This document shows, piece after piece, positions 4,807 to 9,528 of a stretch of 36,384 bases of DNA (position 1 is the first letter of the stretch; every line of letters begins with the position of its first letter). A model generated the notes under the pieces. It saw only the letters and a list, made by a program, of their open reading frames with translations. It did not search any database and had not been told where the DNA came from. This DNA is from Deltaproteobacteria bacterium (GTDB lineage Bacteria > Desulfobacterota > Binatia > Binatales > Binataceae). Made by a program: the position numbers and the translations under genes. The stretch spans positions 1 to 36,384 of the forward strand of contig PNBD01000085.1 of assembly GCA_003135855.1 (NCBI GenBank), written 5' to 3'.

Positions 4807-5601
4807 ATGGATGCAAAAGATAGCGCGGCTCGAATCCGTGAGCTTGCCGCCGCCCTCGGAGGACTCAGCACTTACCAACTCGAGTGGCTGGAAGGCGTTG
4901 TTAACCAGTTCAAACTGAAACCGGATCTTTGGCGTGAGCCGAAGTCAGAACTTGTAACAGATTGTGTCTCGGAGATGTTCGGAGACGCTCTCCAGATTCA
5001 TCACTGTTTTTCGCGTGAGCCGCTATCAAAGGACCGTTTCGAATACGCGTTCGAGCGTGTCCTCAGCCGCTGCGGCATACCAGCGCAACTGGCTTCAAGG
5101 GGCAACCCCGGTCATGACATCACCATTGCGGGCGAACGGTTCAGCCTGAAGACTCAGGCTGACCGAAGCATAAAAGAAGACTTTTTGCACATATCGAAAT
5201 TCATGGAGTTGGGGAAGGGCAGGTGGAATAAGGCTGAGAAGGACCTGGTGGGCCTGCGAGATCAGGTTTTTAAACACATGAATGGCTATGATCGAATCCT
5301 TCAACTCCGGCGCATCACAGACACCGCGACACTTCAGAAGTACGAGCTCGTCGAAATTCCCAAGGATTTGCTCCTCAAGGCCAAGGATGGAACTCTCCGT
5401 ATGATGCACGGCAGCGCGCAGCGTCCTAAACCGGGGACCTGCACGGTCGCCGCAAAAGACCGCCGCCTATTCGAGCTGTATTTTGATGGGGGAACCGAGA
5501 GAAAATTACAGATTCGATACTTGGATAAACGAGACTGCCAGGTGCACGCATCCTGGGGAATTAAGCGGATTCCAGCGACGATCGTTGAGAAAACAACGTA
5601 G
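4807..5601 (+). CDS. SmaI-like type II restriction endonuclease
   Basis: This 264-residue protein shows a PD-(D/E)XK nuclease core: NPGHD104-ITIAGE110 followed by S113-L-K115. From memory, the blocks NPGHDITI, HISKFMELGKG, EIPKDLLLKAK and YFDGGTERKLQI closely resemble the SmaI endonuclease of Serratia marcescens (about 247 residues), which cuts CCC^GGG. The neighbouring convergent gene encodes an N4-cytosine-type methyltransferase, as expected for a SmaI-type system. Their 3' ends overlap by 41 bases. AGGAGG at 4789-4794 lies 12 bases before the ATG. Base composition is lower in GC than the flanking core genes, so recent transfer is likely. No controller (C) gene is seen beside it. The exact target is inferred, not shown. 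Confidence 0.8.
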   Translation: MDAKDSAARIRELAAALGGLSTYQLEWLEGVVNQFKLKPDLWREPKSELVTDCVSEMFGDALQIHHCFSREPLSKDRFEYAFERVLSRCGIPAQLASRGNPGHDITIAGERFSLKTQADRSIKEDFLHISKFMELGKGRWNKAEKDLVGLRDQVFKHMNGYDRILQLRRITDTATLQKYELVEIPKDLLLKAKDGTLRMMHGSAQRPKPGTCTVAAKDRRLFELYFDGGTERKLQIRYLDKRDCQVHASWGIKRIPATIVEKTT

Positions 5602-6421
5602 TTTGCACGGCAGCCGATGCGATTCTCTTCCTGGCAATCTCTGCGTACTCGGGTTTAAGTTCGATGCCGATGCAGCCGCGGCCGAGTTCCTGTGCCACCA
5701 CACCTACAGTGCCGGCACCGAAGAACGGATCAATGATCTTACTCTTCTCTGGGCTGCCGGCGACCATGCACAGTTTCACCAAGGACGGCGGAAACATCGC
5801 GAAATGAGCTTCTTTCGAAGCCTCAGTATTGATTGACCAAACGGTTCGCCGATTTCTTAGCTGGCCTCGCGTCGTTGTCGGCTCTTTGCTTCCGTCGGAG
5901 TCGTAGAAGTAATCTTCGTTCTTTGAAAGCAAAAACACATATTCGTGTGAACGCGTTGGCCGATCCTTTACACTTTCCGGCTGGCAGTTCGGCTTGTACC
6001 AGATGACGTCCGACCTCAGATACCAGCCATCGGCTTGCAGAGCCAACGCTATTCGCCACGGGATTCCGATGAGTTCTTTGTCTTTCAACCCAGTCGGATT
6101 TGGCGGTCGGTAACTCATCCCGCGTGCGGGATTCTTCTTGTCTGGATCGCGCCAGCCGCGGTTCCCGCTGGTGTAAGAGTCGCCAACATTGAGCCAGAGG
6201 GTTCCGTCGTTGCGAAGCACTCGTCTAACTTCGCGAAAAATCGCTACCAAATCTTCCAGATATCGTTCCAACGTCGGCTCCGCTCCGATTTGGCCCTCGA
6301 TACCGTAGTCACGCAAGCCCCAGTACGGCGGGCTCGTAATGCAACATTGAAAGGTTCTCTCCGGAAAGGAAGCCAATACCTTTCGCGAGTCGCCGACAAT
6401 AATCTCTACGTCAACAGCCAT
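5561..6421 (-). CDS. N4-cytosine-type DNA methyltransferase of the restriction-modification pair
   Basis: This is a 286-residue beta-class methyltransferase. Catalytic motif TSPPYWGLRDYG (SPPY at residues 30-33) is near the N terminus and the AdoMet-binding motif DPFFGAGT (231-238) near the C terminus. SPPY favours N4-cytosine over N6-adenine methylation. It would protect the host from the adjacent SmaI-like nuclease by methylating the same site. ATG 6421 was chosen because the protein then begins just ahead of the conserved VEIIVGDSRKVL strand and matches the ~290 residues of M.SmaI; a TTG at 6502 in the same frame would add 27 residues of no visible merit. Convergent orientation with the nuclease gene makes separate promoters necessary, which could let methylation precede cutting. 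Confidence 0.88.
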   Translation of the reverse strand: MAVDVEIIVGDSRKVLASFPERTFQCCITSPPYWGLRDYGIEGQIGAEPTLERYLEDLVAIFREVRRVLRNDGTLWLNVGDSYTSGNRGWRDPDKKNPARGMSYRPPNPTGLKDKELIGIPWRIALALQADGWYLRSDVIWYKPNCQPESVKDRPTRSHEYVFLLSKNEDYFYDSDGSKEPTTTRGQLRNRRTVWSINTEASKEAHFAMFPPSLVKLCMVAGSPEKSKIIDPFFGAGTVGVVAQELGRGCIGIELKPEYAEIARKRIASAAVQTTLFSQRSSLESA

Positions 6422-6745
6422 CGGGATTCTCTTTGGATTGATTTTCAACTCGTCATCTACCACGTTTGCACTCGATAATCTGTCGCACAAGCCTCCGCTC
6501 AAGGCGATTCCACAAGGGTGGTTCGCTCAATTCCGGCTGATGCCGGCGCGTGGCCGACTGACTGGTGTTTTCTGCGCATCGCGTGCTGCAAATAACGCTT
6601 TCCGCAACTTCCGTCCAGCTATACTGTCCACTCGCTGTTCATAGCCTGTCTCCCGTGCGTCCAACGTGGATGATCTCGCTTCGCGACGTTCCGGAGAATA
6701 GATCCCCGCTATTACCCGCTCGTGCTTTCGTGTTTCGTTCTCCTG
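6422..6745. other. Intergenic stretch upstream of the methyltransferase, containing repeat copy A
   Basis: No convincing gene is seen. It should contain the methyltransferase promoter. Its main content is copy A of a ~110-bp sequence repeated at 9398-9507 (separate entries), and it ends at the target duplication of the IS element. Confidence 0.6.
6583..6690 (+). repeat. Direct repeat copy A with 11-bp-phased GTCCA-like boxes
   Basis: This segment aligns with 9398-9507 at roughly 80% identity, including identical CTGTCCACTCGC and CATAGCCTGTC blocks. Inside it GTCCA-type pentamers start at 6626 (GTCCA), 6637 (GTTCA), 6648 (GTCTC) and 6659 (GTCCA), exactly 11 bases apart. One box per helical turn suggests a protein-binding array. 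Both copies lie outside the IS element and are in the same orientation. Confidence 0.75.
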
Positions 6746-6753
6746 AACTCAAT
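6746..6753. repeat. Target-site duplication, left copy (AACTCAAT)
   Basis: AACTCAAT directly precedes the left end GGGGATTAGG and recurs directly after the right end at 9190-9197. Eight-base duplications are characteristic of IS1595-family insertion. Confidence 0.9.
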
Positions 6754-6776
6754 GGGGATTAGGTGGCACTTGACTC
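6754..6776 (+). repeat. IS left terminal inverted repeat (IRL)
   Basis: Begins GGGGATTAGGTGGCAC and ends with TTGACTC. Compared with the inward-read right end (GGGGATTGGGTGACTG, then TTGACTC), 19 of 23 positions match. The transposase -35 hexamer lies inside it. Confidence 0.88.
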
Positions 6777-6799
6777 TCACGTGTTCTTGAGCGTATAAT
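6770..6799 (+). promoter_or_regulatory. Sigma-70-type promoter of the transposase, inside IRL
   Basis: TTGACT (6770-6775), an 18-base spacer and a perfect TATAAT (6794-6799). Transcription would start at about 6805-6807, essentially at the ATG (6807), so the transposase mRNA is probably leaderless or nearly so. No Shine-Dalgarno sequence would then be present. Confidence 0.75.
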
Positions 6800-6806
6800 C
6801 CAAGGC

Positions 6807-7703
6807 ATGAACGAAACAACGCAATCAGTCGATGCATTCGATAGACGGTATCCGACCGAAGAGTCTTGCCGCGAGGCTTTACGAGATGCGCGCTGGCCTA
6901 ACGGTGTGACTTGCCCTAAGTGCGGCAAGAAAGAAAAGGTCTATGCGCTGAAGTCAAAGCCATTCTATTGGCTCTGCAAGAACTGCAAGAGCTATCGCTT
7001 CAGTGTGATCTCCAGCACGATTTTTGAGAACACAAAGAAGCCGCTGAAAATTTGGTTCAAAGTCGCCTACCTGATGCTGGTCGCGAAGAAGGGTCGGAGT
7101 GCGCTGGAGATTCATCGCACGATGTACGGCGATCCGTTCACTGCCGACTATCATACAACTTGGTACATGTGTACGCGGCTTCGCGCTGCGATGCGGAATC
7201 AGACATGGGAACAACTTATGGGCGTGGTCGAGATCGATGAGGTCTATCTTGGCGGCAAAGAGCACAACAAGCACCGGAGCCAGCGCGTCGGCAATCGCGC
7301 CCTGCAAGGCAAGACCGAAGTGATCGGAGCCATCGCCCGCAAAGGCAATATCGTCTGCCAAATGGTCGAAGAAGCCGACTTTAAGACCTATGACGATTTC
7401 GTCAAAAGGACTGTCTCAAGCAAGGTCGATTTGATCGCTACAGATGAGAGTTTCCGTTATCGGCATCTCAGGCAAATGGGTTATCCGCATGAGTTTGTAA
7501 CGCACAAGAACGATGAGTTTGTGCGCGGTCGAGTCCATACGCAAAGCATCGAAAGTTTCTGGTCTCTGCTCCGGCGCGGCATCATGGGCAGCTACCATAA
7601 AGTCAGCAAAGATTACCTGCCGCTGTATCTCGCGGAATTTTCTTTCCGGTACAATAACCGAAAGAATCCCGACATGTTCCGCGAGCTACTTTCGGGTTGC
7701 TAG
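6807..7703 (+). CDS. IS1595-family (ISXO2-like) transposase
   Basis: This 298-residue transposase has an N-terminal zinc ribbon (C36-x2-C39 and C57-x2-C60) and a DDE-type catalytic core: VEIDEVYLGG (D144), LIATDES (D213) and HTQSIESFWSLLRRG (E249). The tail KVSKDYLPLYLAEFSFRYNN is typical of the family. It cuts and joins the element's ends and creates the 8-bp duplication seen at its borders. No frameshift or internal stop is present, so it may be active. The promoter overlaps the left inverted repeat, so transposase bound to the end could repress its own synthesis; that last point is inference. Confidence 0.95.
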   Translation: MNETTQSVDAFDRRYPTEESCREALRDARWPNGVTCPKCGKKEKVYALKSKPFYWLCKNCKSYRFSVISSTIFENTKKPLKIWFKVAYLMLVAKKGRSALEIHRTMYGDPFTADYHTTWYMCTRLRAAMRNQTWEQLMGVVEIDEVYLGGKEHNKHRSQRVGNRALQGKTEVIGAIARKGNIVCQMVEEADFKTYDDFVKRTVSSKVDLIATDESFRYRHLRQMGYPHEFVTHKNDEFVRGRVHTQSIESFWSLLRRGIMGSYHKVSKDYLPLYLAEFSFRYNNRKNPDMFRELLSGC

Positions 7704-7735
7704 TAAACCGATTGGACGACCGCTAAAATGCCAGT

Positions 7736-7879
7736 ATGTCGTCAAAACCCGCTACCAAAAAAGCCGTCGAAGAAGCGCGCGAAGAACTAAAGCACGCCGA
7801 CATGGAAAAGTTCGATCGGATGTTGCGCGCGCTAGTGAAGGTTACTGGCGACAAGAAACCGAAGCCGCGCAGAAAATAA
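7736..7879 (+). CDS. Small charged passenger protein (47 aa), unknown function
   Basis: ATG TCG TCA... to TAA encodes 47 residues rich in Lys/Glu/Arg, with a central amphipathic stretch (EEAREELKHADMEKFDRML) and a basic tail KKPKPRRK. It follows the transposase stop by 32 bases on the same strand, inside the IS. I know no function; similar short charged proteins can sit next to IS1595 transposases. No clear ribosome site is visible, so it could depend on translation from the transposase transcript. Confidence 0.5.
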   Translation: MSSKPATKKAVEEAREELKHADMEKFDRMLRALVKVTGDKKPKPRRK

Positions 7880-7896
7880 CAGAAGGGGAAACAAGA

Positions 7897-8121
7897 ATGG
7901 TAGCCGTTGACATTCGACAGGTTGAGCAACTCAGCAACACAGTAGCCGAGAAAATCCTAGCCGCGATTGATCGCAATACGAAGGCTCTACAGGCTCTTGC
8001 GGTAATAGTCGCCGCTCACGGCAACCAGACTCTGCCACCATTGCTAGATCCGAAATCGACCGAAGAATATGTTGCCGAACTCTTTAATCGCGTGGTAGGG
8101 CCCGGTCGTTCTCGCGCTTAG
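7897..8121 (+). CDS. Small passenger protein (74 aa), unknown function
   Basis: An ATG preceded by AGAAGGGGAA (good Shine-Dalgarno, about eight bases away) opens a 74-residue frame, mainly helical by composition: VEQLSNTVAEKILAAIDRNT, then KALQALAVIVAAHG. The C-terminal part PKSTEEYVAELFNRVV could be a short binding helix. It follows the 47-residue gene by 17 bases and its 3' end overlaps that of the convergent small gene (8084-8278). The function is unknown; its place inside the IS marks it as a passenger. Confidence 0.6.
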   Translation: MVAVDIRQVEQLSNTVAEKILAAIDRNTKALQALAVIVAAHGNQTLPPLLDPKSTEEYVAELFNRVVGPGRSRA

Positions 8122-8278
8122 CCAGCAATAGTGGACTGTCGGCTTTAACGACTTGTGTAGCCTGCAAAAGGTCGCAAGCGTAGAGTAACGCCGACTTCGC
8201 TATTTCCAGCGACAATCCGTCTAAGACCTGAATCAGTTCGCACGCTAGCTGAGTTTTTGATTTTTCGTGTAAGTCCAT
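8084..8278 (-). CDS. Small protein translationally coupled to the DUF3800 gene (64 aa)
   Basis: ATG at 8278-8276 overlaps the TGA stop (8280-8278) of the upstream DUF3800 gene in a TGATG arrangement, which strongly suggests translational coupling. The 64-residue product is helical by composition, with SKTQLACELIQVLDGLSL and EIAKSALLYACDLLQA. It matches no family I recognise. Tight coupling to a DUF3800 protein suggests the two products act together, for example as partner or regulator; that is inference. Confidence 0.6.
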   Translation of the reverse strand: MDLHEKSKTQLACELIQVLDGLSLEIAKSALLYACDLLQATQVVKADSPLLLAKRENDRALPRD

Positions 8279-9102
8279 CAAATCTTTCGCTTCGGAATAT
8301 TTTGTCGCTGGCAGAAGTCAATCAGACTAGGCGCACGGAACCTTTCTCGGTACCAAGGATGATTGTCTTGCAAGCTAAAATGCGTGTGAGTGTATTTTAC
8401 CTGCAAAAATAACTGACTGAACGCCTTCCATAGCCAAGGTTCGATGCTTTGCTGAACGATCTTTCCGGCTTCATGGTCCCGCATCAAGTTCAATAGCTGC
8501 CATGCCGCGAAGTCGGCGGACTGCAATTCAATAACGTCCTTCTTCTTCTCAGTTTGGATAACTATTCCGAAGTCTCTTTCAACACAGCGCACTAAGCTGT
8601 CTTGATGCGTGTCACCGAATTCAAACACGAAAAGCGGATATTTATATAAGTGGTCATCGCACCAGCCACGAACCCGTTCTACGCAACTCCATCCTGCAAT
8701 GGAGTATGGAAGAAAGTCGCGCTCTGCGAGCGCATAGTCTTTGTTGGCACGTCGCCAGTCATCCAGTATCACAACACTGGCAAAACTAAGCACGACGGTC
8801 TTAACAACGACCTTTATCAACTCCGTTAGCAGTCTCCGCTTATCAGAGGAACGTTTCTCCCATCCCTTGAATTGATGGCTATTGTTGATGAAGTCGGTCA
8901 TATGGAATTGCTGGATGCCCGCCTTTTGAAGCGCGGTCGTCCAAAGCCTTTCAAACTCGCACCAGCGCGGCTCAAACGAGATAAATCCGCCGACCACCAA
9001 AACGTTGCCCTGTTTTGGATGTCCGGCAGCATCGAAGTAACCCGTTAAGACAGCCACTAGACTACTTTCCGCATCGCGCCCACGACGAAGCGCATCGAGC
9101 AT
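8278..9102 (-). CDS. DUF3800-domain protein carried by the IS element
   Basis: This 274-residue protein contains the DUF3800 signatures: LTGYFDAAGHP (D24) near the N terminus, FHMTDF in the middle and LQSADFAAWQ toward the C terminus. The acidic positions suggest an RNase H-like or metal-dependent nuclease fold, but the activity of the family is poorly defined and is not claimed here. The frame extends to a GTG at 9180 inside the right inverted repeat. I chose ATG 9102 because a good promoter (9145-9173) would start transcription near 9138, and ATG 9102 is the first start codon in frame after that. DUF3800 genes are frequent cargo of mobile elements and occur near defence loci. Confidence 0.8.
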   Translation of the reverse strand: MLDALRRGRDAESSLVAVLTGYFDAAGHPKQGNVLVVGGFISFEPRWCEFERLWTTALQKAGIQQFHMTDFINNSHQFKGWEKRSSDKRRLLTELIKVVVKTVVLSFASVVILDDWRRANKDYALAERDFLPYSIAGWSCVERVRGWCDDHLYKYPLFVFEFGDTHQDSLVRCVERDFGIVIQTEKKKDVIELQSADFAAWQLLNLMRDHEAGKIVQQSIEPWLWKAFSQLFLQVKYTHTHFSLQDNHPWYRERFRAPSLIDFCQRQNIPKRKI

Positions 9103-9144
9103 ATGACGAAGGCGAGAGTATGCCTTCGACTCACTGACCGTCGA

Positions 9145-9173
9145 ATCATAGGCTCCCCAGCGGCAGGAGTCAA
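9145..9173 (-). promoter_or_regulatory. Sigma-70-type promoter in the right inverted repeat, driving DUF3800
   Basis: Read on the minus strand: TTGACT (9173-9168), 17-base spacer, TATGAT (9150-9145). The -35 falls in the inverted repeat, mirroring the transposase promoter at the other end. Confidence 0.7.
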
Positions 9174-9189
9174 CAGTCACCCAATCCCC
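9167..9189 (-). repeat. IS right terminal inverted repeat (IRR)
   Basis: Read inward on the minus strand it begins GGGGATTGGGTG and contains TTGACTC, matching IRL at 19 of 23 positions. It is directly followed outside by the duplicated AACTCAAT. Confidence 0.88.
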
Positions 9190-9197
9190 AACTCAAT
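9190..9197. repeat. Target-site duplication, right copy (AACTCAAT)
   Basis: Identical to 6746-6753. Its last two bases are the first two of the first parS palindrome, so the element landed exactly at the edge of a parS site. Confidence 0.9.
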
Positions 9198-9212
9198 GTT
9201 TCACGTGAAACA
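9197..9212. promoter_or_regulatory. parS: parS centromere site 1 (ParB binding)
   Basis: TGTTTCACGTGAAACA is a perfect 16-bp palindrome identical to the chromosomal parS consensus bound by ParB/Spo0J; it extends one base each side to ATGTTTCACGTGAAACAT. Confidence 0.92.
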
Positions 9213-9225
9213 TACGCGCACCAAA

Positions 9226-9241
9226 TGTTTCACGTGAAACA
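9226..9241. promoter_or_regulatory. parS: parS centromere site 2 (ParB binding)
   Basis: A second perfect copy of TGTTTCACGTGAAACA (18 bp with flanking A/T), centred 29 bases from the first. Such sites load ParB onto the chromosome near the origin for segregation. No parA or parB gene is in the window. Confidence 0.92.
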
Positions 9242-9242
9242 T

Positions 9243-9528
9243 TTTACTCGACTCTAATTTCTACCAGCGCGGAGCACGTCTCCGAGGGCAACGCCCGCAT
9301 CCTGGTTGTTTCTCCGTCCCCAATCTCCACAATCTGCGCCATCTGCGGTTCCACTCTTTCCCCCTGACGCCCACCGAAGCCGTTTCTTCCCATTCGTGTG
9401 CTGCGAGTAACGCTTTGCGCGACTTCCTCCCACCTATCCTGTCCACTCGCAGTCCATAGCCTGTCCACCGCCCGTCCAACGTGCGATCATCTCCCCTCGC
9501 GACGATTCCTTAGTCCTCCCAAGCTTCT
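9243..9528. other. Non-coding stretch between parS and the sigma-54 activator gene, containing repeat copy B
   Basis: No gene is supported here. It holds repeat copy B (9398-9507) and must contain the promoter of the following regulator gene, though I see no clear hexamer pair. Confidence 0.6.
9398..9507 (+). repeat. Direct repeat copy B with four perfect 11-bp-phased GTCCA boxes
   Basis: Homologous to 6583-6690. GTCCA starts at 9441, 9452, 9463 and 9474, every 11 bases. CTGTCCACT and CTGTCCACC differ at two positions from TTGTCCACA, the DnaA-box form used by some high-GC bacteria. Without the IS, copies A and B would lie under 400 bases apart with the parS pair between them. Confidence 0.75.

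Follow-up and report, generated by a model that had tools for sequence, protein, structure and literature searches.

Scattered parS sites paired with a second sequence motif in a bacterial genus, and one such pair split by an IS1595-family transposon

ParB loading is thought to act mainly near the replication origin, since ParA exerts its pull there and SMC starts from there. The great majority of parS sites described so far lie within about 20% of the chromosome around oriC (PMC7022226). In Caulobacter, distant parS sites are harmful and a second parS cluster is tolerated only in a region of about 500 kb around the native cluster (PMC5815017); in P. aeruginosa, parS is functional only in a region of about 650 kb around oriC, and a distant site fails to support segregation (PMC5098823). 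A few lineages, such as the Bacilli, have scattered parS sites whose purpose is unclear (PMC8357415). Among multi-parS chromosomes, that of B. subtilis has eight sites over about 0.75 Mb (PMC8357415) and that of Myxococcus has 22 near the origin (PMC3899335). Noc, which acts in the nucleoid occlusion of Firmicutes, has binding sites (NBS) that are scattered over the chromosome, except near the terminus, and differ in sequence from parS (PMC7383237; PMC4331003), and the two specificities go with different residue pairs, R173/G201 for the parS type and Q173/R201 for the Noc type (PMC7383237). By analogy, Noc may be the nearest functional counterpart of the units described here, which resemble it in being ParB-family sites scattered over the chromosome, but which contain exact parS instead of NBS and an added partner motif.

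The stretch of DNA analysed, hereafter the window, comprises 36,384 nt and corresponds to contig C65 of its genome (G000), a draft assembly of 4.5 Mb in 157 contigs. It contains two perfect 18-bp parS palindromes, both exact matches to ATGTTTCACGTGAAACAT, at 9196-9213 and 9225-9242; the 16-mer TGTTTCACGTGAAACA is exact at 9197-9212 and 9226-9241, and the copies lie 29 bp apart, centre to centre. The linker of this doublet (9214-9224, minus strand) is related to TTTGGTGCGC, the linker sequence found in further doublets of the same genome (C42, C49, C72 and C114), and a degenerate CAGCGCGTAGCGCGCATC repeat copy follows the pair at 9259-9300. No further parS match with up to three mismatches occurs elsewhere in the window, and shuffled versions of it hold 0.06 matches on average, with two matches in none of 100 shuffles. 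The earlier note had described two perfect sites of the chromosomal type, 29 bases apart, and both points hold: the matches are exact, practically none are expected by chance, and the genome also encodes a canonical chromosomal ParB. Over the whole genome there are 27 exact parS 16-mers and 29 exact 14-bp parS cores, the latter on 16 contigs, against 0 for the reversed-pattern control and about 0.008 expected at this base composition.

In the case of the window's genome, the chromosomal parB lies on C139, where assembly gaps interrupt it, and encodes ParB_N and ParB HTH domains; ParB_N is present in 37 of the 38 genomes searched. The ParB of a relative (G005) retains the parS-type residues R173 and G201 in Caulobacter numbering (alignment to 6t1f, residues as in PMC7383237), and hence not the Q173/R201 pair of Noc. 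A second, distant ParB_N match lies in a 498-aa open frame on C103 (60432-60686, L053), and similar long frames occur in some relatives. Comparison of relatives locates the origin-type arrangement: parA and parB accompany a parS cluster in G003, G005 and G013, gidA/gidB adjoin where tested, and in several relatives parS lies 16-31 kb from dnaA. The corresponding cluster of G000 is at the start of C134, which carries gidA by Pfam, with parB on C139 and parA in the gap between these contigs; therefore the window is not the origin cluster. The count and map relative to dnaA that the earlier note had proposed gives the 27 exact 16-mers and sets the window contig apart from the dnaA contig (C35) as well as from those with parB and gidA, in a draft assembly without contig order. 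Its observation that no parB is near the pair is confirmed, since the window contig lacks a ParB_N match and both of the genome's ParB_N matches lie elsewhere, on C139 and C103. Its suggestion that the pair marks the origin region is not supported, the origin-type cluster being on C134/C139. The system thus matches chromosomal ParABS in the exact consensus TGTTNCACGTGAAACA (two copies), in a canonical ParB with parS-type specificity residues and in the gidA-gidB, parA-parB and parS neighbourhood, and differs from it in having about thirty copies on 16 contigs, the scattered ones with a partner motif close by at a nearly fixed distance.

This bipartite unit consists of one or two perfect parS sites followed on one side by a 23-bp motif, AGTTCAGGAGAACGAAACACGAA, whose start lies mostly 4-7 bp from the 14-bp parS core when all G000 sites are compared. 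The arrangement parS-N3-9-AGTTCAGG is confined to the window's genus, occurring in seven of seven genomes (35 units) and in none of the 34 other genomes of the family. Exact AGTTCAGGAGAACGAAACACGAA copies number 23 in six genomes, and nearly all either lie beside a parS that is intact or has decayed slightly, or have an IS1595 element, or what is left of one, between them and their parS; motifs that seemed free-standing proved, in the cases examined, to be IS-split units or to lie beside a decayed transposon. Among scattered parS, the motif is found at eight of nine sites in G005 and at six of seven in G006 (one IS-split unit counted), or 14 of 16 in these two genomes together, compared with none of their seven origin-cluster sites (P = 1.5e-4). 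A good part of the parS sites of G003 have other neighbours or none. At some sites of G000 and G003 the shared neighbours are CGCCGTTTGTTCG, TTCAGCCGTCTCATCC or CAGCGCGTAGCGCGCATC (L042, L043, L164, L171-L173, L034, L045, L322), and parS is thus embedded in mosaics of short repeats there. According to our crude gene calls, the units are mostly intergenic, with neither a bias in gene orientation nor a common neighbour gene. A bidirectional terminator (A-run, palindrome, T-run) suits the copies of G005 and G006 but not those of G000, and was rejected. Neither scattered parS of this kind nor a parS partner motif was found in the literature searched. We know of no fixed parS partner motif in Streptomyces, Myxococcus or Bacillus, whose arrays likewise comprise many parS per chromosome but, unlike the units here, are origin-centred.

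A second, independent case occurs in another genus of the same family. The genome G013 has 24 parS cores, nine of which form the origin cluster, and a different motif, TCCMCAGGAAWTTT (up to three mismatches), lies to one side of the core at a distance of 25-31 bp at 11 of 12 scattered loci (L191-L193, L195-L200, L316 and L318), against none of the nine origin sites (P = 3.4e-5). Exact TCCMCAGGAA occurs eight times in the G013 DNA examined, each time at a parS. Between core and motif the DNA is unrelated among loci, and a common motif and spacing around unrelated DNA argue against the plain spread of a repeat. Judged by contigs and assuming one replicon, the parS sites of G013 must extend over 50% of the genome or more, so that not all of them can be origin-proximal, a further departure from chromosomal ParABS. 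A regular site spacing of 150 kb was considered for G013 and dropped on the full site list. The motif TCCMCAGGAAWTTT itself holds TATCCACA-like stretches that resemble DnaA boxes, with TTATCCACA at L318.

In the window, the unit is interrupted. An IS1595-family transposon of 2,436 bp (6754-9189, plus strand) occupies the junction between parS and partner motif, so that AGTTCAGGAGAACGAAACACGAA (6727-6749, minus strand), once 4 bp from the core of the first parS copy, is now 2.4 kb off. The element has an 18/22 terminal inverted-repeat match, a transposase at 6807-7703 (plus strand; DDE_Tnp_IS1595, PF12762, E 6e-36; zinc ribbon PF12760) and a perfect 8-bp target-site duplication, AACTCAAT, at 6746-6753 and 9190-9197, the last base of the second copy being the first base of the parS 16-mer. 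It shares transposase, terminal inverted repeats and 8-bp duplication with IS1595 transposons that carry passenger genes, as in ISApl4 (PMC12561309). The passenger gene (8278-9180, minus strand) has a weak DUF3800 match at the curated cut-off (PF12686, E 5e-4). When the flanks are rejoined without the transposon, a canonical doublet unit results. The earlier note had considered a remote centromere site or descent from a mobile replicon. With 29 cores on 16 contigs the pair is not a lone site of this sort, and the mobile replicon is not supported, the pair being one of many scattered, genus-specific units of parS and motif, later split by a transposon. Four more insertions, with differing 8-bp duplications, hit the same junction (G003 C24, G003 C46, G002 C80 and, divided over contigs C28 and C43, one in G006), and such repeated use of one parS/partner-motif junction by five independent insertions sets them apart from known IS1595 transposons; most of the roughly 42 IS1595 matches in the seven genus genomes lie elsewhere.

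We give about even weight to the reading that the units are chromosome-wide putative ParB loading stations, each with a candidate partner-protein site, maintained by selection. ParB binding, the partner protein and the function are all inferred. ParB-CTP would load at parS sites scattered over the arms of the chromosome, and the partner motif would be occupied by a second DNA-binding protein that sets what the loaded ParB does, perhaps its sliding direction or the recruitment of SMC, membrane or division machinery. These arm stations would be separate from the partition complex formed at the origin and would work in a Noc-like manner, as at the scattered sites of Firmicutes, though built on authentic parS and an ordinary ParB. 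A wider version, which we hold more tentatively and rate somewhat below even, is an arm-wide centromere system: ordinary ParB would be loaded at numerous parS stations, at each of which another sequence-specific protein acts as the gate, and the system would have arisen, or been rebuilt with another partner motif and spacing, on separate occasions in two genera of this family. If this is true, perfect parS over much of the chromosome together with a second motif would mean another, arm-wide job for ParB, and the partner motif would offer a sequence handle for finding the protein by which distant parS becomes harmless or useful.

The main rival to gated ParB stations, which we consider unlikely though clearly the strongest of the alternatives, is that a REP-like or miniature mobile repeat, located between genes, happens to hold parS and spreads by itself without a cellular role, even if ParB may bind it. 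Like REPs, the units are short, mostly intergenic, present in many copies and used as transposon targets. In G000, copies match one another at 84-94% over 44-63 bp and lie within mosaics of other short repeats, and their likeness in longer flanks and in the common doublet linker is that of a spreading repeat. Presence and absence vary between close relatives: many copies are missing at orthologous places, with the whole unit lacking, so no single copy is essential. Against this, the G013 loci have only parS, motif and spacing in common and not the intervening DNA, and the perfect parS core is kept in 16 of 19 motif-ascertained, uninterrupted units. In six orthologous comparisons, parS core and motif are each 95% identical amid near-random surroundings (spacer 54%, flanks 58-62%, with 49% for unrelated DNA aligned alike), in a set restricted to loci that retain the unit, which inflates the contrast. 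Moreover, empty-site comparisons reveal neither terminal repeats of the unit itself nor a duplicated target, and the units differ from REPs in holding an authentic parS. The earlier note had set two findings against a centromere role, namely lack of any ParB homologue and many copies scattered at random. The first does not apply, given the chromosomal parB on C139; the second holds by half, the copies being many and scattered, but most of them in a fixed arrangement with the partner motif.

An ordinary multi-parS origin domain of the Streptomyces, Myxococcus or Bacillus type, merely fragmented by assembly, is less probable still. Such genomes exist (22 parS in Myxococcus, PMC3899335; eight in B. 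subtilis, PMC8357415), and the minimum span that contigs can prove for the window's genus amounts to only 20-25% of the genome, for draft assemblies taken as single replicons. A compact origin cluster of differing architecture is nevertheless present separately, and sites over at least half of the G013 genome, if it is one replicon, exceed such a domain.

Very improbable is the idea that the partner motif derives from part of ccmH and has no role of its own. An in-frame copy of parS and motif near the start of a CcmH-family protein encodes LFVFLSPELKNVSRETF (SPELKNVSRET) in five of seven genomes (L047 in G000, L180 in G005, L189 in G006, L312 in G002 and L315 in G004), and some G000 copies match this unit over a few extra bases. 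In the ccmH copy the gap measures 4 or 7 bp and so preserves the reading frame; copies outside ccmH also have a frame-breaking 6-bp gap and still conserve the motif, and for this reason the unit as a coding fragment was rejected. That the palindrome serves another regulator as its operator, a notion that the mostly intergenic position would suit, is the least credible reading, since the sites are identical to those beside parAB in relatives and have neither a consistent gene orientation nor a common neighbour.

Other IS1595-family copies lie in the loops of inverted repeats, for example CTCGCCCG-TTACTTTA-CGGGAGAG (L283, L291, L292, L304, L307), which suggests a taste of the family for intergenic palindromes. 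Adjoining the transposon of the window is a low-GC stretch with a restriction-modification pair, composed of a SmaI-like type II restriction enzyme (4807-5601, plus strand; PF17411, E 9e-82) and a convergent N6/N4 DNA methylase gene (5561-6502, minus strand; PF01555).
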